NCBI RefSeq assembly: GCF_007474605.1
Contig: NZ_VHKL01000004.1
Span: forward strand, 248,001-312,000
Direction of reading: 5' to 3'
DNA: 64,000 nucleotides
Source: Rhodoligotrophos appendicifer
GTDB lineage: Bacteria > Pseudomonadota > Alphaproteobacteria > Rhizobiales > Im1
Below the pieces are notes generated by a model, which had not been told where the DNA came from, made no database searches, and was given only the letters and a program-made list of their open reading frames with translations. The position numbers were made by a program, and so were the translations under genes. Positions 14,575-28,185 of the stretch are shown here, in pieces; the stretch's first letter is position 1, and every line of letters begins with the position of its first letter.

Positions 14575-15243
14575 TCAGGCGGGTTGGTCGGCGAAGAAGA
14601 CCCGCTCAACAGCCTTTTGCCCGGATGCAGTTAACGCCACTTCCCGTACGCGACGATCGTCTTGGGTGGACTTCATGACAACGAGCCTTCGGGCCCGAAG
14701 TCTCTCAAGACCGCGCCACAACGTGGACAGCGAGATCCCGCTTTCGGACGACAATCGCGTCAGTGAAAGACCCTGTGGATCACGACCATAAATACTCGCC
14801 AAGATCAGCCAGTCGCGATCCCTGGCCACCTGCTGGCAGACACGGTCGATCAATCTGACGGTGCGGAGCCTTTCATCAGCCAGCCGAGCGGCCCTAAGCG
14901 TTTTGATCTTGGCGGGCAGCTCCTCGCGTGAGACCACTTCAAATTTGGAATCGTTGTTGCTTTTCTCCTCCGCAAGCAGTCGAAGAGTAGCATCAAGTTG
15001 ATTTTTTCCCGAAATTACTACTATTTCGAAATCGTTTTCGTACCGGTCCTTTTTATTCCCAGTGCTTTCAGGACCTGCAGACAAACTATCAATGACCACG
15101 AGAATAAATTTAGAATTTTTCTCGGATAGTTCTTCCTGGAGAGTATTTATCTTCTGGAATGTGGCGCCGGAGATCAAGCTCGAACTTAAGAACGCGCCGC
15201 CTACTTCAGGAGATAGAACCGGATCCAATGTTTCCAGTTTCAT
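14575..15243 (-). CDS. winged-helix (MarR-like) transcriptional regulator with unusual N-terminal half, 222 residues
   Basis: The C-terminal 100 residues form a MarR-type winged helix: LTRLSSESGISLSTLWRGLE as recognition helix region and MKSTQDDRRVREVALTASGQ as wing. The N-terminal 110 residues (EKNSKFILVVIDSLSAG, NDFEIVVISGKNQLDATLRLLAEE) alternate beta-strand and helix like a small alpha/beta domain, perhaps a degenerate receiver, which ordinary MarR proteins lack. A TCCCA-N3-TGGGA palindrome 66 bases upstream recurs at the EPS locus, so it may regulate itself and EPS genes. Function otherwise unknown. Confidence 0.72.
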   Translation of the reverse strand: MKLETLDPVLSPEVGGAFLSSSLISGATFQKINTLQEELSEKNSKFILVVIDSLSAGPESTGNKKDRYENDFEIVVISGKNQLDATLRLLAEEKSNNDSKFEVVSREELPAKIKTLRAARLADERLRTVRLIDRVCQQVARDRDWLILASIYGRDPQGLSLTRLSSESGISLSTLWRGLERLRARRLVVMKSTQDDRRVREVALTASGQKAVERVFFADQPA

Positions 15244-15755
15244 GTTGACCGTTCCCTCGTAGGAGAAGCCGCAAACAGCAACCGCTCAGATTTTCCGCCC
15301 TTTGCATTTCCCAAATTGGGACTGCAACAGTTATTGCTTCAATGAATTGCAAGTCCTGCGCCACGGCTTAACAAGCTCGCCTCAGAAATTGCGAAGAGCG
15401 GCGATCAAACTTGTCGCTAGAGCAGGATAGACAGACTGAAAAAAATTTTGATGGCGTTGGATTGCCGCCTCACCTGAAAAGCGGCTTTGATGATCCAAGA
15501 ACTTGGACACAGGATCAAAGGCGTTCCGCTTCACGGACCGCTGTCGACAGACACAGGTTCAACGAGACCGCCCCGTGGCCGGTTTCGTCCAGCTGAGAAT
15601 GCCGTTAACGGGTCCTGCGCGAGATTTACAGGCCGAATTTTAGACCGTAAGCGGAGCCCAATCGCACAACACTGTTCGCGTCGTTGATTAGTCGAAGCTA
15701 AGACGTCAAAGAACTTGAGTGTTTCTGACTTCTGCCTTCGACCTCTGCTCTCCCT
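15244..15755. other. 512-bp intergenic region without a supported gene
   Basis: It holds the upstream region of the winged-helix regulator (with the palindrome at 15309-15321) and the downstream region of ectC. A short open frame at 15411-15596 (+) has no ribosome site and no recognisable sequence. No tRNA or clear terminator seen. Confidence 0.5.
15309..15321. promoter_or_regulatory. palindrome TCCCA-AAT-TGGGA upstream of the winged-helix regulator
   Basis: Perfect 5-bp arms with 3-base spacer, flanked by TGCA on both sides (one base off symmetry). The same arms and spacing occur at 26198-26210 in front of the EPS export gene. Candidate operator. Confidence 0.5.
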
Positions 15756-16166
15756 TTAGTCTGGAGGGGGATAGCTTCCGTCAGACTGATGCTTCTCGTT
15801 GCCCACCAGAGCCGGCACGAAAATACAAATCAGGTGCATGTTTCCATTTGTTGCACGTAATACATGCTCGTCATGCTTATCCAGAGTATACAAAGTCCCC
15901 GGCTTGATCGGATGCGTGACACCCGTGGCTACATCTAAGACTTCGCCTTCACCCGCAATACAGTAATTCGACTCCGTATGATGCTTGTAGTGAAGATGCT
16001 GTTCGGTGCCTTCGGGAACGATGGTGTGATGGAGCGAATATCCCAAGCCATCCGCCGCCAGAAGCAATCGACGGCTCTCAGTCCCAGTGCTGCCCGTCAC
16101 GTGGCGATCCGTTCCGATCACATCCTCTAACCGTTTGATTATCATAGCTCGCGACCGCTCCAACAT
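15756..16166 (-). CDS. ectC: L-ectoine synthase, solitary
   Basis: 136 residues from the ATG at 16166 (GGGGGAGG 3 bases upstream) or 129 from the ATG at 16145, the usual EctC length. The cupin core is clear: MIIKRLEDVIGTDRHV, GTEQHLHYKHHTESNYCI, AGEGEV, IKPGTLYTLDKHDEHVLRA, and a C-terminal VGNEKHQSDGSYPP, all matching EctC. The enzyme closes the ring of N-gamma-acetyl-diaminobutyrate to ectoine. Neither ectA, ectB, ectD nor ask is adjacent; flanking genes are a regulator and a sugar epimerase. Solitary ectC genes are known in a few bacteria and may use externally supplied precursor. Confidence 0.88.
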   Translation of the reverse strand: MLERSRAMIIKRLEDVIGTDRHVTGSTGTESRRLLLAADGLGYSLHHTIVPEGTEQHLHYKHHTESNYCIAGEGEVLDVATGVTHPIKPGTLYTLDKHDEHVLRATNGNMHLICIFVPALVGNEKHQSDGSYPPPD

Positions 16167-16214
16167 TTGCCTCCCCCATCATGAGGCAATCGGCATCAAT
16201 CCGAAACGGTAAAT

Positions 16215-17252
16215 TTAGTTTTCAACCTCAGGGTTGGATCCCGCCCCGGGGCGCTCATTTCGATACCAGGCGACAAATTTCTCGACGCCCTCGGTGACAG
16301 GTGTCGACGGCCTGAAACCAGTCAGGTGCTCCAACAGTCTGTGGTCGGCATAGGTTGCGGGGACATCCCCCTTCTGCATGGGCATCATGTTGCGGCGTGC
16401 CGTCCTTCCCAGGCATCGTTCTATCGTCTCGACGAACTCCATCAATTCCGTTGTATGCCCGCCGGCTATGTTCACCAAGCGCCAGGGCGCGGCGGGAGAC
16501 AGGCTGTCCTCCACGCCCTCACCACTTACCGGAGCGCCTGCAACGGGAATGCAGGCGACCAGACGGACGATCGCCTCCACCAGATCATCGACATAGGTGA
16601 AGTCACGCCGCATCTCACCCTGGCCATAGATATCAATGGGCAGGTCCTTCATGATCGCGTCAACGAATTTGAACAGAGCCATGTCGGGGCGGCCCCACGG
16701 TCCATACACGGTGAAAAAGCGAAAGCACGTGGTCGGCAGAGTCCATAGATGGGCATAAGAATGGGACATGACCTCCATCGCCTTCTTCGTCGCGGCATAG
16801 AGCGTGATAGGGTGGTCCGTGCGGTGGATCTCCATGAAGGGCATTTCCTCATTGGCACCATAGGCGGAACTGGTCGAAGCCAAGAGAAGATGACGCGGCG
16901 ACAACATTCGTGCCACTTCGAGCACGTTGAAGGAGCCTATGAGATTTGAATCTGCATAGGCACGGGGATTTTCCAGGCTGTATCTCACCCCCGCTTGAGC
17001 AGCCAAATGGATGATGATCTCGGGCTCCGCGTCCCGCGCAGCACGTTCCAAGGCGGCCATGTCTTCCAACATTCCGATTCGCGCCTGGAAGCCGTTCGAT
17101 CGCGCCAGGATCGCGTGCCTCGCTTCCTTGAGGCGAACGTCATAATAAGGGGTCATCCCATCAAATCCGACCACGAAGTGCCCTTCGTCGAGCAGGCGCC
17201 TTGCCAAGTGAAACCCAATGAAACCTGCCGTCCCGGTAATGAAAAACCGCAT
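16215..17252 (-). CDS. NAD-dependent sugar epimerase, UDP-glucuronate epimerase type
   Basis: 345-residue short-chain dehydrogenase of the extended class. N-terminal [18 protein letters not shown] binds NAD; the catalytic triad is in [15 protein letters not shown] (Ser) and [14 protein letters not shown] (Tyr-X3-Lys). [17 protein letters not shown] and [14 protein letters not shown] are typical of UDP-glucuronate 4-epimerases (LspL/CapI-like), which make UDP-galacturonate for polysaccharides. UDP-glucose dehydrogenase, which makes its presumed substrate, starts divergently 183 bases away. Likely role: precursor supply for the adjacent EPS locus. Confidence 0.88.
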
Positions 17253-17434
17253 AGGGAATAACCTGCTTGAACGTGCCTAGGGGATCCGCAGACTATTCTC
17301 AAAGCCTCGCTCGTCAATGGCGGAGATCTTCGCGCTGCCTCATTTCCATGCGACGATGAAACCCGTTTGCGAGGTTGATTTCGCGGATGCAGCATGCGCA
17401 GATCTGCAAGTCGTTGAAGGCGGGGCGGTAGACT

Positions 17435-18793
17435 ATGAAACTGGTTATGGTGGGTTCGGGATATGTGGGACTCGTGTCGGGCGTCTGCTTCGCCGATTTC
17501 GGGTTCGATGTGGTGTGCGTCGACGTGGATGAAGCCAAGATCGCTCGGCTAGAGACCGGCGAACTGCCCATTTACGAGCCGGGACTCGACCAGTTGATGG
17601 CTGAGAATGTTTCGGCTGGTCGTCTCACATTTTCGACGGATCTCGCCACTGCTGCTGCCGATGCAGACCTGGTGTTTATCGCCGTGGGCACCCCCTCTCG
17701 CCGAGGCGATGGTGAGGCGGATCTGACCTATGTCTTCGCTGCCGCAAAAGAGGTTGCCCACGCCATCAAACCAGGCACCGTTGTCGTCATCAAATCGACG
17801 GTGGTTGTCGGCACGTGCCGAAAGGTCAGAGAGATCATCGCAGCGGAGCGGCCCGACCTGGAGTTTTCAGTCGCCTCCAACCCGGAATTTCTGAGGGAAG
17901 GCTCTGCGATCGAAGATTTCATGAGGCCCGACCGCGTCGTGATCGGCGTCCATGACAAGCGGGCCGAGGTCGCATTGCGCCGCGCCTACAGGCCTCTGTA
18001 TCTCCGCGATTCGCCGATGGTCGTGACGTCCTTGGAGAATGCCGAGATCATCAAATATGCCTCGAACGCGTTTCTTGCCTTGAAGGTCACCTTCATCAAC
18101 GAGGTTGCCGACTTGTGCGAAGCTGTTGATGGCAATGTCCAGGAGGTGGCACGGGCCATTGGGCTGGACGGCCGTATCGGATCAAAATTCCTTCATGCCG
18201 GACCGGGCTTTGGCGGCTCTTGCTTTCCGAAGGACACCAGAGCATTTGCCGCTACGGGCCACAAGCACGGCTCAAGGCTGCGTCTGATCGAGGCGGTCAT
18301 CGACATCAATGAGAGCAGGAAACGACGTCTTGCGGACCGAATCCTGGAAGAACTCGAGTCCGTCAGTCAGGCCAAGGTCGCCGTTCTCGGCGTCGCCTTC
18401 AAGCCCAATACCGACGACGTCCGTGAGGCGCCTAGCTTGGACATCATCCCGAGGCTCGTCGGCGCCGGCGTCTCGGTCGTCGCCCATGATCCCGAGGCCA
18501 GGCAGCAGGCAGAGCCGCTTCTGAAAGGAATTGGCTGGGCGGATGATGCCTATGAAGCCGCAGAGGGCGTCGATGTTGTGGTCGTGCTCACGGAATGGAA
18601 CGAATATCGCGGCTTAAACCTCCGCAAGCTTGCCTCCCGCATGCGAGGAAGAACGATGGTGGATCTGCGCAATATCTATCGCGCAGATGACCTCGCTGGC
18701 AGCGGCCTTGTGTATATCAGCATCGGCAGGCCGCGGATCGACAGTGGATCTGAGCAGTCGTCCTTCTCGGAAACCGAGCTCGTTCAGCACTAG
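17435..18793 (+). CDS. ugd: UDP-glucose 6-dehydrogenase
   Basis: 452 residues. N-terminal Rossmann motif GSGYVGLVSGVCFADFG, VGTPSRRGDGEADL, the central helix region SNPEFLREGSAIEDF, and the catalytic cysteine in GPGFGGSCFPKDTRA, followed by the second Rossmann domain (VAVLGVAFKPNTDDVREAPS). It oxidises UDP-glucose twice to UDP-glucuronate. Divergent from the epimerase gene and convergent with the EPS operon. A terminator follows at 18824-18846. Confidence 0.95.
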   Translation: MKLVMVGSGYVGLVSGVCFADFGFDVVCVDVDEAKIARLETGELPIYEPGLDQLMAENVSAGRLTFSTDLATAAADADLVFIAVGTPSRRGDGEADLTYVFAAAKEVAHAIKPGTVVVIKSTVVVGTCRKVREIIAAERPDLEFSVASNPEFLREGSAIEDFMRPDRVVIGVHDKRAEVALRRAYRPLYLRDSPMVVTSLENAEIIKYASNAFLALKVTFINEVADLCEAVDGNVQEVARAIGLDGRIGSKFLHAGPGFGGSCFPKDTRAFAATGHKHGSRLRLIEAVIDINESRKRRLADRILEELESVSQAKVAVLGVAFKPNTDDVREAPSLDIIPRLVGAGVSVVAHDPEARQQAEPLLKGIGWADDAYEAAEGVDVVVVLTEWNEYRGLNLRKLASRMRGRTMVDLRNIYRADDLAGSGLVYISIGRPRIDSGSEQSSFSETELVQH

Positions 18794-18823
18794 AGTTCCA
18801 TCTGCAAAGGCCATCGCAAGACG

Positions 18824-18846
18824 GGAGCCATATCGGCTCCTTTCTT
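18824..18846 (+). terminator. Rho-independent terminator of ugd
   Basis: GGAGCC (18824-18829) pairs with GGCTCC (18835-18840) across a 5-nt loop, followed by TTTCTT. It is 31 bases after the ugd stop codon and 9 bases before the end of the convergent gene. Confidence 0.75.
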
Positions 18847-18854
18847 ATGCAGCG

Positions 18855-20318
18855 TCAATAAGCCTGGGCGCTGACAAAGCCCTTCACGGTCGTCTTGACG
18901 AGAATTTCCATGTCGGTCGCCAATGACCAGTTCTCGATGTAATAAAGATCACAATCGACACGACGGCGCATCAGGTCTGGTGTCTGCGTCTCTCCTCTGA
19001 AGCCACTGATCTGAGCCAAGCCAGTGATCCCCGGTTTGACCTTGTGCCGGTTTGCGTATTCTTCGATCAGCTCACCGTAATACTCGTCGTGAACCATGGC
19101 GTGTGGACGCGGGCCCACCAGGGACATCTCGCCTTTCAGCACATTCCAGAGCTGGGGGAGCTCGTCGAGGCTGGTCTTGCGCAAAAGGCGCCCTAGCCGC
19201 GTAATGCGTGGATCATTCGTGGTCGCCTGGACCACATTCTCTCCATCTTCCATCACCTTCATGGTGCGGAACTTCCACACATCAATGACCTTGTGATTAA
19301 GGCCTCGGCGCTTCTGCCGGAAAAACACGGGGCCCTTACTGTCGAGCTTGATGGCCAGACAGATCAGGCTCAATACAGGGGACAGCATCACCAACAGAGC
19401 GAGACTGCTGATGCGGTCGAACAGACTTTTGAAAATGCGGCCCCAATCGTCGATGGGCCGCGTTTGCAACGCGAGCAGCCTGGTTGCACCCAGCGTGCGG
19501 ATGGACTTCACAGATGCGGCCGTCGAAAATTCCCCTGGATATAAAGATATGCCCACCGGCATCTGAGAGAACTTCAGGACGGCGGACGCGATCTCTTTTT
19601 CGGAAGAGAGAGGCAGGGCCAGTATGACTTCATCTGCGCCAGACAACCTCACTCCAGAAGTAATCTGCTCCAGCAACGCCGACTGATTCACCACTGCATG
19701 AGTGTCATAATTGTAGACCCCCGCGACGACCATCCCGGCCGGCGTGTCCGCCAACTGTCGCTGAATGGCTTCGAGGGGCGCGCCCGCGCCGACGAGTACA
19801 ACGCGCTTTGCAAATGCACCGCGCTCAAACAGGCCGCCGATCAGTCGCACGGCCAGTTTTCGCTCGAGGACCAGAAGCGTGAGGGACAGTAAAAACCACG
19901 TAATCGCCCAACCGCGGGAATAGTCCGACGACACTTTCACGACGTAGCCGACCGCTCCGACGATCAGAAACCCGATGAGAAGGCCGATGAAAAAGCGCCT
20001 GACATGTCCGGACTGCGTTCCGAACAGCTCCGCGTCGTATAGCTTCTGCTTGTGGAGCGTCACGGCGCAGACGAGAGCCCCCATGAACCCTACCCCCGCA
20101 TAGCTCGCCGTATCCGCGGATTCCTGGGCCAGATAGACATCGATGTAGAGAAGCTTCGCGACGATTGCCGAGACGACGATGATGGCCATCTCCACAGCCA
20201 TACCGATGTCCATAAGGACCTTTCGGTTGATGCCGTGGCGATTCAGGAATTCGAGGATTCCCTGCAGGCCGTAGCCCGCCTGGCCCTTCCCAGCCAATTC
20301 CTGTTCAACAATGCTCAT
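18855..20318 (-). CDS. undecaprenyl-phosphate sugar phosphotransferase (WcaJ/polyisoprenyl-phosphate hexose-1-P transferase)
   Basis: 487 residues. Five hydrophobic segments: four in the N-terminal 130 residues and one before the catalytic domain (about residue 305). The middle CoA-binding-like domain has [17 protein letters not shown]. The C-terminal bacterial sugar transferase domain shows [45 protein letters not shown] and [15 protein letters not shown]. It transfers sugar-1-phosphate (commonly glucose) from UDP-sugar to undecaprenyl phosphate and so starts EPS repeat-unit synthesis at the inner membrane. Last gene of the minus-strand EPS operon. Confidence 0.92.
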
Positions 20319-20365
20319 ATCGGCCCCGCTCTCCTACGCACTCTGCACTCTATCGATCGCCACTA

Positions 20366-21043
20366 TCAGTCCGCTGGAACCAGCCTCTCCATCGTTCGTA
20401 AGAAGATCTCCTGCTCATTATCCGGTCTCGTCTCCGCCTCGGAGACCACTGCCTCCTTGGAGCCCTCGGGGGCCGTCAAGTAAAGACTGGCAAGCATTCG
20501 TGGCGTCTGGAACCTCAATTCCCTCTGCACCATGGCCCTGGACTCGGGATCCAGTTCCGCCCACAGCGCCAGTGCCAGCGGGGTGCGATCCGAGCTCAGC
20601 CAGCCTTCTCTGGGGCCTGTCAGATAGGACGCGCGCAATGCGGCGACGGTTCGGTCGCTATCTTCGGCAGCGCGGTAGAGGCGAGCCATCTGAAGCCAAG
20701 CATTGGGCGATCCTGGCGCCAATTGGACGGCCCGAGCATAGGCTTCCAGTGCCGTCGCCAGCGTCGAAGAGGCTTGCGGATTGTCGCTCTCCTCCTCCTG
20801 ATCATATTTGGAAAGAAGCAAAGTGGCATAGCGCAGTTGCGCATCGCGGTTGGCCGGTTGCCAATACACGGCCCGAGCTGCTGCCGCGAGTGCAGGCGCA
20901 GTATTCGAAGGATCGGCGGCCTCGGCGATACTGGCATCAAGCATTGCCCATTCGGCGAGAGCTCTCGGAGCCGCAAGCCAAAACAATCCGCCGCTCAGAA
21001 CAAGAGCAAGCACGAGCTGAACATATGCTTTTCGGCTATTCAC
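20366..21043 (-). CDS. membrane-anchored TPR-like protein of the EPS operon
   Basis: 225 residues with an N-terminal hydrophobic segment (about 8-28, signal anchor) and helical repeats resembling tetratricopeptides, clearest at ALEAYARAVQLAPGSPNAWLQMARLYRAAED. The rest is likely periplasmic. No enzymatic motif. Its place between the tyrosine kinase and the initiating transferase suggests a scaffold in polysaccharide assembly. Start is a GTG at 21043. Confidence 0.7.
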   Translation of the reverse strand: MNSRKAYVQLVLALVLSGGLFWLAAPRALAEWAMLDASIAEAADPSNTAPALAAAARAVYWQPANRDAQLRYATLLLSKYDQEEESDNPQASSTLATALEAYARAVQLAPGSPNAWLQMARLYRAAEDSDRTVAALRASYLTGPREGWLSSDRTPLALALWAELDPESRAMVQRELRFQTPRMLASLYLTAPEGSKEAVVSEAETRPDNEQEIFLRTMERLVPAD

Positions 21044-21095
21044 CGCCTGTTACCTTCGCGAATTCCGCCATACCGCTTCAAGTCCCCGAAAGAAC

Positions 21096-23321
21096 TCAAT
21101 CGTCCTTGCCGTAATAATGGGGGTATTTTCCATAGGCATAGCCGTATCCATAGGGGCTATACCCGCTCATCTTCTTGACATTGACTTTATTCAAGGCGAC
21201 GCCTGCGATGCGATGGGCGTTGGGTCCCAGATTTCGCATGGCCGACATCACGACCTCTCGGGGGGTCTTGTCCCACTCGACCACGAGGAGGATCGAATCC
21301 ACTTCCTTCGCCAAAACGCGGGAGTCCACAACCGGCGTTATTGGAGAGCTGTCGACGATCACCAGATCGTAAAGATCACGTGCACGTCGCAGCCAGTCTC
21401 TCATCTTTGCGGATTCCAACACCTCGGCCGTGTTCTGCACGCGCTGGGAGGCCGGAAGAAAATGAAGATGCGTCTCGGGATCCTTCAACAACACAGATTC
21501 CGCCGAAACCTGCCCCACCAGGAACTCGACAAGTCCGGGTGCACTGTCTGCACCCTCGCCCAGCCAACGGTTGGTCAGCGCGGGGTGGCGCAAGTCCGCA
21601 TCCATGAGCAGTACCTTCATGCCCGTATGAGCAGCAAAGGAGGCAAGGTTCGAAGACAGGGTTGTCTTGCCTTCGGCCGGGACCGCAGAGGTGACCATGA
21701 CGACACGCGGCGGCTGGTCGATATTGGAGAGGAGGATCTCCATCTTGAGCGCCCGTATAGCTTCCGCGTAAGTCGATAGCGGTTTGTTTACGGCGAACTT
21801 CTCCGCGGGGATCACCCCCTTGTCGCTCTTCAGCTGGCTGGCGAGCATGAGCGGCACAGTCGCAAGGACGGGGAGCTTCAGGACCTCTTCGACCTGGGCG
21901 CTGGATTTGAACGAGTCGTCAAGATGCTCCGTCAGGAAGGCCAAGCCGACCCCGATCCCGCAGAAGCCAACAAAGGCAATGGCGAGTGCGAGCTTCTTAT
22001 TGGGATAGGATGCGGAGGTGGGTGCAAAGGCCTTGGCAATGATCCGTGCCTCGGGAGTTTGTAGGGTCTCTTGCTGGGAGACCTCCTTGAATCGTCCTAA
22101 GAACGCCTCGTACAGGGCCCGGTTGGCACTGGCTTCCCGTTCGAGCTCGCGGACCCTGATGGTCGCGGATTTATTGCCTTCGATCCCGCTTTGGAGTTTT
22201 TCCAAACTTTCCTGCAGGGACTCGGCTCGGGTAAGAGCAACCTCATAATCGTTCTTGATGTTGGCGACCACACGGCTCACTTCCAGGGTGATCTGGCGCT
22301 CGATATCCCCCCTCTGCGCGCGGATGTTGATCACCTGCGGATGCTTGCTGCCATAGCGGGTGGCCAGCTCCGCCTCGCGGCCAGCGATGGTTGATTGCTG
22401 TCCTCGCAGCTGCGCCACCACGTCGGACCGGATCACCGCTTCCAAAGACCGCTGGCTATTCGGCTGGCTTTGAATTTCCAAAACGCGATCATAGCGAGCC
22501 TTCGCCTCGGCCACATCTGCACTTGCGAGGACGAGTTGCTGGTTGATCTGGCCAAGCTGCTGCTCGAAAATGTCCTGGCCACCGGTGCTGATGATGTTGT
22601 TCTCTTGCTTGAACTGCTCAACAGCGTTCTCAGACACTCTGAGATTCTGCGCCAAGGCCGACAGACGCTCATTCAGCCAATCGGTCGCGAGCTTGGTCGC
22701 CTCGAATTTCGCCTCCAGCTGATCAACCAGATATTCTCCGGCAAAGGCGTTCGCAATGCGGGCGGCCTTGTCGGGGCTCTTCGCCGTGTAATTGATCACA
22801 AGCACATAAGTGCGCCCCTCACGTCTCACATCGAGACCCGTGAGGACCGCCTGCGCCAGGGAGGCCTGTTCCGGTGTAAGGGTGTCGTCCACAGGAAGCG
22901 GAGTCGCGTCACTTTTGGCTTCGGACTGAAACATGGACATGAGCCATCCAACGGGCGAGAAACCGTCGGACGTCGGTCGAAATTCCACGTCATTCGCCAA
23001 TTTAAGCTTGTCAGCAACACGAAGAGCCGTCGCGGTCGACTTGATCAACTCCACCTGACTGTCAATCGCCGCAGTATCGGCCCCCATGCCGGAGAGGACC
23101 GCCTCGGCGTCGAAGACGGCTTTACTGCGGGTATCAATCAGGATGCTGGCGGAGGCGGTATAAAGCGGTGTTGCGACCATCAGGTACAAGGAAACCAGCG
23201 CCAGCCCAACAGCAATCGTTCCAGCGATGAGCTGCCACCGGCGGCGCAACGCCCTCATTATTTCGCGGAGATCAATCTCCGCGTCCTCAACCGCTGCAAC
23301 AGTTTCGTTTTTCATCAACAT
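21096..23321 (-). CDS. polysaccharide co-polymerase with bacterial tyrosine kinase domain (Wzc/ExoP type)
   Basis: 741 residues. Wzz domain with first membrane segment at about residues 33-50, long periplasmic coiled coil (about 190-420), GNVR-type region with PEARIIAKAFAPTSASYPNK, second membrane segment near 440-460, then the kinase: Walker A SAVPAEGKTTLSSNLASFAA, Walker A' VLLMDADLRHP and Walker B LVIVDSSPITP. The C-terminus is a tyrosine cluster (eight Tyr in the last 23 residues), the usual autophosphorylation tail. It controls chain length and export together with the Wza-like lipoprotein. Member of the minus-strand EPS operon. Confidence 0.93.
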   Translation of the reverse strand: MLMKNETVAAVEDAEIDLREIMRALRRRWQLIAGTIAVGLALVSLYLMVATPLYTASASILIDTRSKAVFDAEAVLSGMGADTAAIDSQVELIKSTATALRVADKLKLANDVEFRPTSDGFSPVGWLMSMFQSEAKSDATPLPVDDTLTPEQASLAQAVLTGLDVRREGRTYVLVINYTAKSPDKAARIANAFAGEYLVDQLEAKFEATKLATDWLNERLSALAQNLRVSENAVEQFKQENNIISTGGQDIFEQQLGQINQQLVLASADVAEAKARYDRVLEIQSQPNSQRSLEAVIRSDVVAQLRGQQSTIAGREAELATRYGSKHPQVINIRAQRGDIERQITLEVSRVVANIKNDYEVALTRAESLQESLEKLQSGIEGNKSATIRVRELEREASANRALYEAFLGRFKEVSQQETLQTPEARIIAKAFAPTSASYPNKKLALAIAFVGFCGIGVGLAFLTEHLDDSFKSSAQVEEVLKLPVLATVPLMLASQLKSDKGVIPAEKFAVNKPLSTYAEAIRALKMEILLSNIDQPPRVVMVTSAVPAEGKTTLSSNLASFAAHTGMKVLLMDADLRHPALTNRWLGEGADSAPGLVEFLVGQVSAESVLLKDPETHLHFLPASQRVQNTAEVLESAKMRDWLRRARDLYDLVIVDSSPITPVVDSRVLAKEVDSILLVVEWDKTPREVVMSAMRNLGPNAHRIAGVALNKVNVKKMSGYSPYGYGYAYGKYPHYYGKDD

Positions 23322-23372
23322 CCGATTTCAGCACTCCACAGCTGAGGCGATCGGAGTTAGGCGGCCGCAATT

Positions 23373-24692
23373 CTAAAACTGAAGCCGCAGACCTACTCCG
23401 GTGTAATTTCGCGTATAATCATACTGACTAAAATTCGAGCTTCTATCAGTAAAGTCATAAAAAATATTCGCGCTGAAATTGCGGTTGACGAGATAATCAA
23501 CCTTGATTCCAGTAGTCACAAGATCGTCTTTACGACCGCTTCCTTCATAATTACTATGAATGAAACCTAAATAAGGCGAGAAGATCAAATTTCTCAACAT
23601 CTCATAGTCAGCGACGAGCCTGACAAGAGTATCCAGACGCCCGGATGCATTTGTCTGGATTGTCTCGCCGACGCGGCGCTCGGCAATCAGGTTCAATGTG
23701 AGCAGTGCGGTTGGATTGTAGAGAACCGCCGCGCGCATAGTCCAATCGCTGATATCCTTTAGATCGCCATCCTTGTAGTCCTGCACGAGATAGCCGAAGC
23801 CGAGCTCACCATGGATCAGATCGGTGATGTCGAACTCGACCCCTCCCAGCCCGGTGATGCCCTGAGAGCTTCGGTTATAACCATCCTTGTCGAAATCCCG
23901 GACATTGCCCTCGACAAGGGCAAAACCCGCGTAGCCCGGCGAGAACTCGTAAGCCCAGCGGGTCGCGGCGACATAGGTTTGACCATCACGATAATGCTGG
24001 TTCAGAGTTCCGCCTCCGACCGCGTCCACATTATCGTAGGATATCGTCGCCGCCGACCCGGCGAGTGAGCCCGAAAGCCGGTTGAAGCGCTTGTTCAGAG
24101 ACAGACCACCCTCGACATTGGTGAACGGTACCGGCTCCAGAGCATTCTGCGGCGCCTCTAACGATCCGGGCGGCTCATGATCATAGACCGCATTCGCAAA
24201 GCCCGTGATGTTGAAGTCCTGGGTTACGTCAACCCGCCAGTTCGCCTTGCCGCCGACATCCGTCCGGTTCTGGCGGGACTCGTTGAAATAGGTGTAATTA
24301 TCAAATGCTACGCTGACATTCAGCGCATGTCGGGCAAAATCCGAAACCGCCGAAACGGCACCACTCACTCTGTTCAGCCCATCGCCGATCTTGTCATGCG
24401 GCTCAGCATAAACATTGTCATCATAAATTATCGCATCTTCCAGCCACGGATAGAGGAAGAAGGACCCGACCCGACCGCCGATCGGATCATAATCCTCCTG
24501 GGGCCTGCTGCGCACGGCATTAGACTCAGCCGGGCTCTTGGAGACGACCGTATTGTTGAATACGGTCGACGCACTTCTCGTCTGAGTGGCACCAGCCACC
24601 CCACTAGATACCGCCTGCGCATGGCCGGGCTGAGCCCAAACAACCGCAAGGACGGCCCCCCCGAGCCATGCCGCGTGTTTCTTCAAACTCAT
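23373..24692 (-). CDS. outer-membrane beta-barrel protein of the EPS operon
   Basis: About 439 residues from an ATG at 24692, giving the signal peptide MSLKKHAAWLGGAVLAVVW ending AQA; an earlier ATG at 24710 is possible. After a low-complexity linker the sequence alternates polar and aromatic residues and ends YTGVGLRLQF, the C-terminal Phe typical of outer-membrane barrels. It resembles the putative beta-barrel porin family found in alphaproteobacterial EPS loci. Probable role: outer-membrane step of polysaccharide secretion, not proven. Confidence 0.8.
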   Translation of the reverse strand: MSLKKHAAWLGGAVLAVVWAQPGHAQAVSSGVAGATQTRSASTVFNNTVVSKSPAESNAVRSRPQEDYDPIGGRVGSFFLYPWLEDAIIYDDNVYAEPHDKIGDGLNRVSGAVSAVSDFARHALNVSVAFDNYTYFNESRQNRTDVGGKANWRVDVTQDFNITGFANAVYDHEPPGSLEAPQNALEPVPFTNVEGGLSLNKRFNRLSGSLAGSAATISYDNVDAVGGGTLNQHYRDGQTYVAATRWAYEFSPGYAGFALVEGNVRDFDKDGYNRSSQGITGLGGVEFDITDLIHGELGFGYLVQDYKDGDLKDISDWTMRAAVLYNPTALLTLNLIAERRVGETIQTNASGRLDTLVRLVADYEMLRNLIFSPYLGFIHSNYEGSGRKDDLVTTGIKVDYLVNRNFSANIFYDFTDRSSNFSQYDYTRNYTGVGLRLQF

Positions 24693-24756
24693 CACCGCCC
24701 CGCCGGCCAAGCAATACTCTCAAGCCATGCGCCAATACACACGCAAGACTAAATCA

Positions 24757-25104
24757 TCAGGCGTTCGGGCTGACCACACCGCCGGTCAATATGTCGGAGA
24801 TCCTGCGAAGAGCATCCCGCACGGCATCCTGGTCGCCAGAGCGAATGGCCTGACGCAGTTCCCGAAACGCGCTCCGCAGCTCGCCCAAAGGCCGCTGACG
24901 CATAGCACGCTGGGAAGAGATACCGCCATTCGTGTCGCGCTGCAGTGCAACCGACTGAACCGGCGCCCGACTCTGCCGCTCCGTGATCTTGCCGAGGCGG
25001 TCCCGGAATCCCTCCAGGGCTGTCGCCGGCGCCACTGAAGACACCGCGAGCGCCGCCGCCATCACGGCACTGCCTAAAAACATTTTCATTCGGCTCTTGG
25101 ACAT
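24757..25104 (-). CDS. small secreted protein, unknown function, first gene of the EPS suboperon
   Basis: 115 residues; signal peptide about 1-29 (SSVAPATA-LE). The mature part is basic and helical (LGELRSAFRELRQAIRSGDQ, AVRDALRRISDILTG), with no recognised domain. The tight spacing (64 bases) to the barrel gene suggests cotranscription. Function unknown. Confidence 0.65.
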   Translation of the reverse strand: MSKSRMKMFLGSAVMAAALAVSSVAPATALEGFRDRLGKITERQSRAPVQSVALQRDTNGGISSQRAMRQRPLGELRSAFRELRQAIRSGDQDAVRDALRRISDILTGGVVSPNA

Positions 25105-25560
25105 ATGTCTAACTCCCGCACAAAGTTAAAGCGATCCTGCGCACGTACGACGAACGTCTCCGCCCGCCCCTCTCATCGCTTTACCAACCTTAATACTACG
25201 CGCCTACATCTCACCGTCAAGACAAAATACCTGAAATCAGAATAAATTCTCCAGGGTCCTTTTGCACTGCTTTAAGAAAATCTGCCCTCATCAGAGGACT
25301 TATTGAAAGCAACACGAGAACTGAGTTCGTTAACAAAATCATTACAGCGAACTGTTTTAATCATCACACGCCAGATTCGAACACTAAGTTGCTATCTAAC
25401 GGAGGAAAACCGCATCGCCGGGCATCGAGACATTCAGCATCGTGACGAATCTTCTTTGAGAGCTTTTCATAATGAAAATAAATTCTGATTTCTTAACAGC
25501 GTCCCAAAAATGGGCCAGGGTGTCCCATATTGCATCGCACAATCGCGGAGGTCGCCGGCT
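25105..25560. other. 456-bp AT-rich intergenic region in the EPS locus
   Basis: Clearly more AT-rich than its surroundings and without a supported gene on either strand. It contains a perfect GAACT-G-AGTTC palindrome (25318-25328) and, at its left-gene end, two tandem TCCCA-type sites (25502-25535). Probably a regulatory region for the genes transcribed leftward from 25104. Confidence 0.5.
25502..25535. promoter_or_regulatory. two degenerate TCCCA/TGGGA sites, 21 bases apart
   Basis: TCCCA-AAAA-TGGGC at 25502-25515 (spacer 4) and TCCCA-TAT-TGCAT at 25523-25535 (right arm degenerate). The left half-sites are 21 bases apart, two helical turns. They resemble the perfect copies at 15309 and 26198. 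Confidence 0.35.
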
Positions 25561-26160
25561 CTAGAAAAACCGCTCGCCTACCCTCACCGTATCTCCTGGG
25601 AGGACGTTCACCGGCCGGTCTAGGTTGTAGGCCATTTCCGCCGATTCGTTTGCTCGGCGAATATACACAGTGCTCATATCAGCCCGATACGTATATCCGC
25701 CAGCTTTTGCGACCGCAGCCTGAAGTGTAAGACCATTGGAGTAAGGATACTCCCCAGCCGACTTTACTTCTCCATGAATGTAAAACGGCCTGTAGTTCAA
25801 AATTTCCACACTGACACTTGGATTTTTCAGGTATCCCTGCGACAGTCTGGCTCCGATCGCCTGCTCGACGTCTCGCGCGGTTTTTCCGCCGGCATTAATC
25901 TGACCCACGAGCGGCAGAGAGAAATCGCCATTGGCGTCGAGCTCAAATTCGCCGGACAAATCCTGCTCACCGAACACGATTACTCTCAGCTTGTCGCCCG
26001 AACCCAGCCGGTAAGACTGGCTCACCGGCGCCGCCGAGTTCAATCCTGCGGGGCTTGCCGTGGCCGTAGGCTGGTATGCCGCCGGGTTTCCGCCCGCGCC
26101 CATGCACCCCGCCAACGCCATGGAAAGCATGACAATTGCTGCCCGAATAGCCTTACTCAA
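25561..26160 (-). CDS. polysaccharide export lipoprotein (Wza/ExoF-like)
   Basis: 199 residues beginning with a TTG at 26160. Lipoprotein signal with lipobox LAGC (Cys 19), then the poly_export domain (YRLGSGDKLRVIVFGEQDLSG, FSLPLVGQINAGGKTARDVE) and a SLBB domain (FYIHGEVKSAGEYPYSNGLT). Much shorter than E. coli Wza, like the single-SLBB ExoF/GumB-type proteins. It would form the outer-membrane or periplasmic exit with the Wzc-like protein. A TCCCA-N3-TGGGA palindrome lies 38 bases upstream of the start. Confidence 0.92.
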   Translation of the reverse strand: MSKAIRAAIVMLSMALAGCMGAGGNPAAYQPTATASPAGLNSAAPVSQSYRLGSGDKLRVIVFGEQDLSGEFELDANGDFSLPLVGQINAGGKTARDVEQAIGARLSQGYLKNPSVSVEILNYRPFYIHGEVKSAGEYPYSNGLTLQAAVAKAGGYTYRADMSTVYIRRANESAEMAYNLDRPVNVLPGDTVRVGERFF

Positions 26161-26485
26161 AACTCGCCCTCGCCGTGGCCCAACCGGAGGATGTCAGTCC
26201 CATTTTGGGACAATCTCCTGCCCGCATGTGCATTATGGACACAAATGTGGCATACATGAGATCAATACTGACGATCCTGCAATCCTCAGCGCTATAGGAA
26301 CATATTAGAGTTCATGGTGCAACGCGATATGAGCTTATCGAGCGATCTTAGATGTATCGAATTGGCACATAATTGTCAGGGGGCCAACTAAAGCGGAGAG
26401 ACATCCGTCGGCTGATCTTTGTCATGCTGAAGAGAAAGCTAAGATTTCGAGACTAAGCAGCACTCACAAAAGGGTAAACAAACAT
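26161..26485. other. 325-bp intergenic region between exbD and the EPS export gene
   Basis: Contains the operator-like palindrome at 26197-26211 and presumably the promoter of the export gene. Near exbD a GTAAA-N6-TTTAC inverted repeat (26474-26489) overlaps the exbD stop and is followed on the minus strand by CCCTTTTG, at best a weak terminator. No gene seen. Confidence 0.45.
26197..26211. promoter_or_regulatory. palindrome GTCCCA-TTT-TGGGAC upstream of the EPS export gene
   Basis: Perfect 6-bp arms with a 3-base spacer, 37 bases before the TTG start at 26160. Same core (TCCCA-N3-TGGGA) as upstream of the winged-helix regulator. Position fits repressor or activator control of the EPS operon. 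Confidence 0.55.
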
Positions 26486-26935
26486 TTACTGTCTGCCCGC
26501 TGCGGCCGCGGCGGGATCGACGACCTCCAACTGAACCAGACCGATCTTGGTATAACCGGCTTGCCTGACGTCGTTCATGACCCCCATGACATCGCCATAG
26601 GACACCATCCGATCGGCCCGCAGGAAGACCCGTTGTTCCTTGTCCCCTTGTGTCGCCTCATTGAGCCGCGCCGCAAGCTCATCGCGGGACAGGCGGTCAT
26701 TGCCCAGGACCAACGACATGTCTGATCGAACAGAGAGAAAAACCGGTTTGTCCGGGCGCGGCTGAGGGGTCGCATTGGACATCGGCAAATCCACGGGCAC
26801 ATCCACAGTCGCCAGAGGTGCTGCCACCATGAAGACGATCAGGAGAACCAGCATTACGTCAATGAACGGCGTGACGTTGATCTCGTGGGTCTCCACCAGG
26901 TCATCGCCGCCGCTCTCGTCCAGCCTTGCTGCCAT
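26486..26935 (-). CDS. exbD: ExbD/TolR family biopolymer transport protein
   Basis: 149 residues. One membrane segment (about 20-45) contains the proton-relay Asp in VTPFIDVMLVLLIVFMVAA, followed by a periplasmic domain (VDVPVDLPMS, VFLRADRMVSYGDVMGVMND). With ExbB it uses proton flux to drive TonB-type energy transfer to the outer membrane. It follows exbB by 5 bases. No tonB in the window. Confidence 0.93.
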   Translation of the reverse strand: MAARLDESGGDDLVETHEINVTPFIDVMLVLLIVFMVAAPLATVDVPVDLPMSNATPQPRPDKPVFLSVRSDMSLVLGNDRLSRDELAARLNEATQGDKEQRVFLRADRMVSYGDVMGVMNDVRQAGYTKIGLVQLEVVDPAAAAAGRQ

Positions 26936-26940
26936 AGTGA

Positions 26941-27927
26941 TTACTCCGCCGGGACAACTCGACCAAAGGAAGCCCGCTCCGCCGGTCGCGAAGAGGGCGT
27001 TGTGTGATTCAGAGCCTGACGATCCAAGTCACGACTTACCAGTTTCATCACGCCAGCGGACACATCGCTCAAACTCGCCCGATACCCGGCAATGGCGCGG
27101 GCGAAGACGTTGTAAATCATCACCGCGGGGATCGCGACGACCAGCCCCAAGGCCGTGGCCAGCAAGGCCTCTGCAATGCCGGGGGCCACCACGGCGAGAT
27201 TCGTGGTCTGGGATTTCGAGATCCCGATGAAGGCATTCATGATCCCCCAGACCGTGCCGAAAAGTCCGACAAAGGGGGCTGTCGATCCCATCGTGGCGAG
27301 AAGACCCGTGCCCTTGGTCATGGTGCGTCCTGCGCGGGCCTCTATTCTGCTCAAGGTGGTGGCAAGGCGTTCCTTAATCCCCTCGGATGCCAAGGCATCG
27401 GACAAGGTCAGTTCTGCGCGCGCAGCGCGCACAAGGTCCGTGCTGGCCCCTCTCGCATGATAGAGCATCTTTTCCGCATCGTGGAGCGAGCGTGCATCAT
27501 TCAGGGCGCCGAGCGTCTGAGACGTGCGCCGCTTGGCTCCGAGAAGTTCGATCGATTTGGCCAACCAGACCGTCCAGGTGAGGACCGATGCGAAAGCGAG
27601 GGAAACCATAACCGCCTTCACAACAATGTCTGCAGCCAGGAACATCCCCCAGGGGGAAAGATCGTGAGGTAGTGCCGCCTTGTTGACGCCGGGGGCAATG
27701 AAGGAACCCGCATCCTCAGTATCAAGAATAGTTTCCTGGGACGGCGTCGGCTCGGTTGTCGCTCCTTCTGGCACAGGAGACGGCGCGGCGGGATCCAAAG
27801 CCTGTGATTGCGGCGGAGAGGAAGGATCCGAGCCAGCCTGCTGTGCCACCGCGGAAGACAACCCATTCAGGATCAGCCCCATGGCGCATGCCAATAGCGC
27901 CGCTCTTGGAAATAATCTCGTCAACAT
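26941..27927 (-). CDS. exbB: ExbB/TolQ family proton-channel protein, long N-terminal form
   Basis: About 328 residues from the ATG at 27927, which exposes a signal peptide (MLTRLFPRAALLACAMGLIL ending AVAQQA); a frame open to 28101 lacks support upstream. After a Pro/Ser-rich periplasmic linker (about 30-95) come three membrane segments, with the conserved MGSTAPFVGLFGTVWGIMNA and LLATALGLVVAIPAVMIYN. This matches the long TonB-system ExbB subtype of alphaproteobacteria. Paired with exbD downstream. Confidence 0.9.
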   Translation of the reverse strand: MLTRLFPRAALLACAMGLILNGLSSAVAQQAGSDPSSPPQSQALDPAAPSPVPEGATTEPTPSQETILDTEDAGSFIAPGVNKAALPHDLSPWGMFLAADIVVKAVMVSLAFASVLTWTVWLAKSIELLGAKRRTSQTLGALNDARSLHDAEKMLYHARGASTDLVRAARAELTLSDALASEGIKERLATTLSRIEARAGRTMTKGTGLLATMGSTAPFVGLFGTVWGIMNAFIGISKSQTTNLAVVAPGIAEALLATALGLVVAIPAVMIYNVFARAIAGYRASLSDVSAGVMKLVSRDLDRQALNHTTPSSRPAERASFGRVVPAE

Positions 27928-28185
27928 AAGGGACACACCATTGTTTGGGAGAAGGAGCGCTGGCTCGCTTGCCTCCGCTGTGTTGGGAGACTGCCGATGG
28001 ATGGCTGGCTGGCTTGCGCAATCGCCTTGCGGCACTTCTGCCGCAAGTCCCGCAGTATCCGCAAGACCAGATATGACGACGAAAGGGAGAAGAGGCAACA
28101 ACCCTGAATTGCGACAGATGACCGGACCTTCCTTCGCTCTGGCCGTTGGGTGATTGACTCCTGCAGGCGGCTATGGAATCCATAG

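Follow-up and report, generated by a model that had tools for sequence, protein, structure and literature searches.

A palindrome shared by an orphan winged-helix regulator gene and a polysaccharide export gene of Rhodoligotrophos appendicifer: a candidate local operator set

In the MarR family of winged-helix proteins, the wing is followed by C-terminal dimer helices. Published accounts, cited here from excerpts of the papers, give 16-20 bases as the usual length of MarR operators (PMC10458429) and describe the EctR operator as A/T-rich, with two half-sites of 8 bases separated by 2 bases (PMC5924519). The closest described system is that of WggR (ExpG), a Mar-family regulator which is encoded in the galactoglucan cluster and recognizes palindromes upstream of its own gene and of exopolysaccharide (EPS) operons (PMC10458429, PMC3233446); one account presents it as an activator when phosphate is limiting (PMC3233446), and another has it acting positively or negatively depending on the condition (PMC10458429). 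In this work, we analyze a stretch of 64,000 nucleotides of the Rhodoligotrophos appendicifer genome (assembly GCF_007474605.1, contig NZ_VHKL01000004.1, positions 248,001 to 312,000), hereafter the window, in which the palindrome TCCCA-N3-TGGGA precedes both the gene of an orphan winged-helix regulator and the export lipoprotein gene of an EPS locus. By analogy with WggR, the best reading of this arrangement is a species-private, self-regulating regulator of EPS export that probably acts as a repressor. Among the matches listed for the open-licence literature, no title concerned a TCCCA-N3-TGGGA site, and the motif strings matched only a yeast paper.

Palindromic sites in the export locus

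According to the earlier note on this DNA, exact copies of TCCCA-N3-TGGGA lie 66 bases before the ATG of the regulator gene and 38 bases before the TTG of the export gene. Both copies are found at these distances (Table 1), and the window contains no others; the second, TCCCATTTTGGGA at 26198-26210, is the 13-base core of a longer, 15-base palindrome. The note also described two degenerate tandem copies, 21 bases apart; they are located in the intergenic region that follows the export gene. The first of these differs from the 6-base arms by one mismatch and has a spacer of 4 bases, and the spacing to the element at 25523 is indeed 21 bases, that is, two helical turns; this second element (TCCCATATTGCAT), however, contains a single good half-site rather than a degenerate palindrome. 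All six TCCCA/TGGGA words present in the four larger intergenic regions of the EPS locus (15244-15755, 17253-17434, 25105-25560 and 26161-26485; 1475 bases altogether) fall in these sites, and the longer words TGGGAC/GTCCCA occur there five times, against approximately one expected from the 43 occurrences in the 64-kb window.

Shuffled versions of the window contained on average 0.08 copies of TCCCA-N3-TGGGA, and none of the 100 shuffles reached two. Since the motif was picked after being seen, the shuffles of intergenic DNA were allowed to produce any palindrome with 5-base arms and a spacer of 0-10 bases. Under this more permissive scheme, 77 of 5000 shuffles of the four regions yielded a shared palindrome, and only 5 of 5000 yielded a shared palindrome together with a third near-copy, which makes a real operator set likelier than chance within the EPS locus. 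Such a local operator set is probably functional.

At the genome scale, the element at 26197-26211 is the sole perfect GTCCCA-W3-TGGGAC (where W is A or T) and the best match to the 15-base form. The form of the palindrome with an all-A/T spacer occurs twice in the genome, both times in the window (one occurrence of the reversed control; approximately 0.4 expected from the base composition of the window). Allowing for one mismatch, the 15-base form is found in three places, two of them in the window and the third at G000:C2:127089 (approximately 1.5 expected), and the near-copy at 25501-25516 is the only genomic match to the form with a 4-base spacer (approximately 0.65 expected). As counts, these numbers are unremarkable; it is the clustering of the sites at the EPS locus that stands out.

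The orphan regulator and its neighborhood

The gene 14575-15243 indeed encodes a winged-helix protein, as the earlier note described, and one of the sites lies upstream of this gene. The best matches of this protein show 28-41% identity over some 55-80 residues of the winged helix, and the profiles matched below their cut-offs include MarR_2, at residues 143-198 with 24.4 bits (cut-off 27), and HTH_27, with 19.5 bits (cut-off 22.2). The 20 solved MarR-type chains listed align to the regulator only from residue 128, most of them from about residue 140, and extend for 34-48 residues beyond the matched stretch. A comparison with the proteins encoded in 40 of the 41 fetched loci (L015 gave none) shows the same difference, with 2-12 residues after the matched stretch in the regulator versus 32-172 in the 40 matched proteins. 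Lacking the residues on which the dimer helices lie, the regulator, judged by its sequence, is not a standard MarR protein.

A search with exact peptide seeds, from which the own and very near genomes were possibly excluded, found no close relatives of the regulator in genome contigs, and there were none among plasmids. Matches were detected in 73 of the 397 genomes of the order (E-value of 1e-3 or better) and in 12 of the 385 genomes of the class (1e-5 or better), the own genome being included in both counts. No match in the order or the class except the gene itself spans the whole regulator; nearly all cover the winged helix, and a few weak ones extend inward (residues ~68-170 in G183 and G021 and 71-214 in G130). 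Three other genomes of the family yielded a single match, with 27% identity over the winged helix (in the congener G002), and none came from the congener G003; the stretches fetched from these two congeners contain no open reading frame (ORF) resembling the regulator. The regulator thus appears to be an orphan in the genomes searched.

With respect to the N-terminal part, residues 44-115 align co-linearly with a profile of 8 receiver domains, at a weak P = 0.048 (three controls gave 0.33-0.41), and the profile search of the regulator returned no receiver family among those listed. The single-sequence structure model, with a mean predicted local distance difference test score of 41.5, was too low in confidence to use. 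The guanine-plus-cytosine content of the regulator gene is 51.6%, and only 43.9% in its first 330 bases, compared with 54-60% in six genes of the neighborhood, which fits a recent acquisition.

Table 1. Genes and palindromic elements of the locus, in window coordinates
Feature	Position	Strand	Remarks
Orphan regulator, 222 residues	14575-15243	-	N-terminal part of unassigned fold; MarR-like winged helix at ~143-208, followed by no more than 14 residues
Exact palindrome TCCCA-AAT-TGGGA (TCCCAAATTGGGA)	15309-15321	no strand	66 bases before the regulator ATG (15243)
Solitary ectoine synthase gene ectC	15756-16166	-	Flanked by the epimerase-like gene and the regulator gene
Nucleotide-sugar epimerase/dehydratase superfamily	16215-17252	-	No NCBIfam cut-off reached
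UDP-glucose/GDP-mannose dehydrogenase family	17435-18793	+	Profile match
Undecaprenyl-phosphate glucose phosphotransferase (initiating enzyme)	18855-20318	-	Above cut-off
Wzc-type chain-length determinant and tyrosine autokinase	21096-23321	-	Profile match
Outer-membrane beta-barrel (BBP2_2; EpsL-like below cut-off)	23373-24710	-	Profile match
Small protein, 115 residues, signal-like start, family-less	24757-25104	-	Preceded by the sigma70-like match 25220-25193
Near-copy GTCCCA-AAAA-TGGGCC, spacer 4	25501-25516	no strand	In the intergenic region that follows the export gene
Half-site GTCCCATATTGCAT	25522-25535	no strand	21 bases from the near-copy at 25501
Outer-membrane polysaccharide export lipoprotein (Poly_export and SLBB)	25561-26160	-	Profile match; TTG start
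Exact 15-base palindrome GTCCCA-TTT-TGGGAC	26197-26211	no strand	37-38 bases before the export-gene TTG (26160)

The profile matches confirm 25561-26160 as a polysaccharide export protein gene within an EPS locus, and the genes listed in Table 1 identify the locus, at the level of sequence, as the export and initiation part of such a locus. Immediately upstream of the export gene lie ExbD and ExbB genes (26486-28101), an adjacency that is kept in G003. A second export-lipoprotein gene, 42% identical, is located at G000:C3:59196-59717, on a contig that contains no N3 palindrome. The ectC gene is the only match to the ectoine synthase family in the genome, and G002 has a copy with 50% identity, at a distance of about 10 kb from its export gene.

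The proposed circuit and its alternatives

Tentatively, and with a likelihood just short of even, we favor a circuit private to the species in which the palindromes serve as operators for a single DNA-binding protein, and this protein is most likely the neighboring orphan regulator; there is modest evidence that this regulator uses the operator set. The regulator would bind as a dimer, presumably in response to a signal, with one recognition helix per TGGGA arm and the A/T spacer between them. Binding at 15309 would limit the synthesis of the regulator itself, and binding at 26197 and at the paired sites 25501/25522 would govern expression of the export lipoprotein and of the operon that follows. 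The paired site could add control of the remainder of the operon, given the sigma70-like match TTGACG-N16-TAGTAT at 25220-25193 (two matches in the region versus 1.3 in shuffles). In both congeners, CTTGACGG also precedes the counterpart of the 115-residue small-protein gene. Further upstream, the alignment with the two congeners revealed a block that the regions before the export genes have in common (GTTGCAC...ATGTTC..TAG, 26323-26292), and the export-gene palindrome lies in unconserved sequence ~80 bases downstream of it. This block is possibly the promoter of the export gene, in which case the site would act in the leader. Since the site seems to lie within the transcribed leader, the mode of control would probably be repression or a roadblock. 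As to the origin of such a circuit, an acquired or fast-evolving regulator would have been placed on an EPS locus common to the genus.

The comparison with the congeners speaks for the proposed circuit. G002 and G003 keep the EPS genes at 37-82% identity, namely 81-82% for the dehydrogenase and the epimerase, 71-72% for the kinase, 67-70% for the export gene (70% and 73% in a separate comparison), 61-63% for the beta-barrel, 56-57% for the undecaprenyl-phosphate transferase and 37-39% for the TPR gene. Neither upstream of the export gene nor in the interval separating it from the beta-barrel gene do these two genomes contain a site with up to one mismatch; only two-mismatch matches occur there (the scan also took in G063, G160, G013 and, upstream only, G001), and the A/T-spacer site is absent from G001, G002 and G003. 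By these comparisons, the site and the regulator are private to the species among those compared. The joint absence of both from two congeners fits a coupled pair and constitutes a single evolutionary contrast.

A number of observations weigh against the proposed circuit. TCCCA-N3-TGGGA occurs 7 times in the 5,593,515 bases of the genome (reversed control 3), against approximately 7 copies expected from the scaled mean of the window shuffles, so that enrichment across the genome is not shown; the remaining 5 copies are all within ORFs, as judged by inspection. The expectation that the motif would be conserved upstream of orthologous export genes failed in the congeners and also in 94 stretches around related export genes (1,549,789 bases, from the best 80 of 155 relatives), which contain no exact N3 copy and one copy of the reversed control. 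A random genomic frequency and a lack of conservation are the two outcomes that the earlier note had named as refuting its proposal, and both were observed. These stretches are not independent because L099 and L101 are continuations of L098 and L100, and at least 4 pairs (L102/L136, L104/L146, L106/L157 and L107/L155) look, from their lengths, like duplicate contigs. An A/T-spacer copy is present in 66 of the 397 genomes of the order, the own genome included; among 29 such copies fetched from other genomes, 15 are inside reading frames, and none has, within ~1.5 kb, a gene similar to one of 17 window proteins from this region. The regulator does not reach the curated cut-off of any listed family, nor does its N-terminal part, and it is devoid of the post-wing residues that bear the MarR dimer helices. 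The interval 15230-15760 yielded no sigma70-like promoter, and the promoter scan did not flag the block 26292-26323, ~80 bases upstream of the export-gene site. Finally, the sites number three in one genome, a small sample, and both the motif and the four regions were selected after the sites had been seen.

A genome-wide regulon was rejected. The N3 pattern occurs at a chance count, the 15-mer, when two mismatches are tolerated, is found in 15 places versus 18 for the reversed control, and the 4-base-spacer form is found in 8 versus 6, with no enrichment in either case. The idea of a wider EPS-regulon motif across relatives likewise has to be abandoned, the frequency being that of chance and conservation being absent; the motif is not a general EPS motif, nor is the system of a new kind. 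Taken as a whole, the earlier interpretation is partly supported.

The same counts lend themselves to the explanation that the matching palindromes are a chance coincidence, noticed by a reader searching for such repeats. The genome-wide number of N3 copies equals the expectation, and the relatives show no conservation. Moreover, when all 36 intergenic segments of the window (6444 bases, from an automatic gene call) were shuffled 300 times, 35% of the shuffles gave some shared palindrome, and the real intergenic DNA contains 4 shared palindromes, three of which are elsewhere, two of them at one overlapping pair of places. Nevertheless, GC-rich arms combined with an all-A/T spacer appeared in only 2% of these shuffles, and the combination of a shared palindrome with a third near-copy was as rare in the four regions as reported above; a coincidence is a real possibility, although an unlikely one.

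A more specific version of the proposed circuit, which we regard as doubtful, is a recent circuit on an old, genus-wide EPS locus, in which an orphan regulator with a novel architecture would have its own new operator, GTCCCA-W3/4-TGGGAC, both at its gene and at the export operon. Within this version, the regulator would possibly combine a degenerate receiver-like N-terminal part with a MarR-type wing, without dimer helices, and G000:C2:127089 may belong to its targets. The latter site (GTCCCATTATGGGCC; L135, 10090-10104) is the only other one in the genome with up to one mismatch. It is located on another contig, approximately 100 bases inside a methyltransferase-like frame, surrounded by glycosyltransferase-, polymerase- and flippase-like frames identified by eye. 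Membership in the regulon and coincidence are both possible, the latter being favored by the intragenic position, which counts against the circuit as well.

Alternatively, the sites could be operators of a regulator encoded elsewhere, the adjacent winged-helix gene being just another target. The adjacent protein is tied to the site by proximity alone, its N-terminal part is unassigned, and the sites look like dimer operators in general. A wide regulon, however, would need more sites than are observed, given that the A/T-spacer form occurs twice and one of these copies precedes the adjacent regulator gene; in addition, the site and the regulator gene are jointly absent from the two congeners. 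We consider a remote regulator rather unlikely.

Another possibility is that the regulator is EctR-like, with the neighboring solitary ectC as the main target, and links osmotic stress with EPS. EctR regulators are of the MarR type, according to the excerpt available (PMC5924519), and the lone ectC lies 512 bases upstream of the regulator gene in the same orientation. Yet the EctR operator is A/T-rich (PMC5924519), unlike the G/C-armed site considered here, the nearest exact palindrome is downstream of ectC rather than upstream, and the similarity of the regulator to MarR proteins is essentially confined to the winged helix, all of which makes this link highly improbable. Least probable of all is a function of the palindromes as RNA hairpins in leaders rather than as DNA sites: the perfect copies can form a stem of 5-6 pairs with a 3-base loop, but the leaders fold no better than shuffles (z of 0.21, -0.57 and 0.73), a hairpin needs self-complementarity and not identical arms at three places, and the fourth copy amounts to a single half-site.

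If the proposed self-regulating circuit is real, it would show on a small scale how a new local regulator emerged, together with its operators, at a polysaccharide export locus conserved within one genus, and regulatory rewiring would become directly testable. It would also provide a handle on an architecture, a C-terminal MarR-like wing without dimer helices, that has no full-length relative in the genomes searched.

Comparison with described regulators

Compared by their descriptions, the present system is similar to WggR of Sinorhizobium meliloti in that the regulator is encoded in an EPS locus and palindromes precede its own gene and an EPS gene (PMC3233446, in excerpt). Unlike WggR, the present regulator lacks the MarR C-terminal residues. 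With the MarR family in general, exemplified by SlyA and OhrR, it shares the similarity of the winged helix and a two-armed palindromic site; unlike in that family, the winged helix is located at the extreme C-terminus, and the site comprises 13-15 bases, compared with the 16-20 given as usual for MarR operators in the excerpt of PMC10458429. Like EctR, the regulator is encoded near an ectoine synthase gene, whereas its putative site, with G/C-rich arms of 5-6 bases and a spacer of 3-4 bases, differs from the EctR operator as described in the excerpt of PMC5924519.

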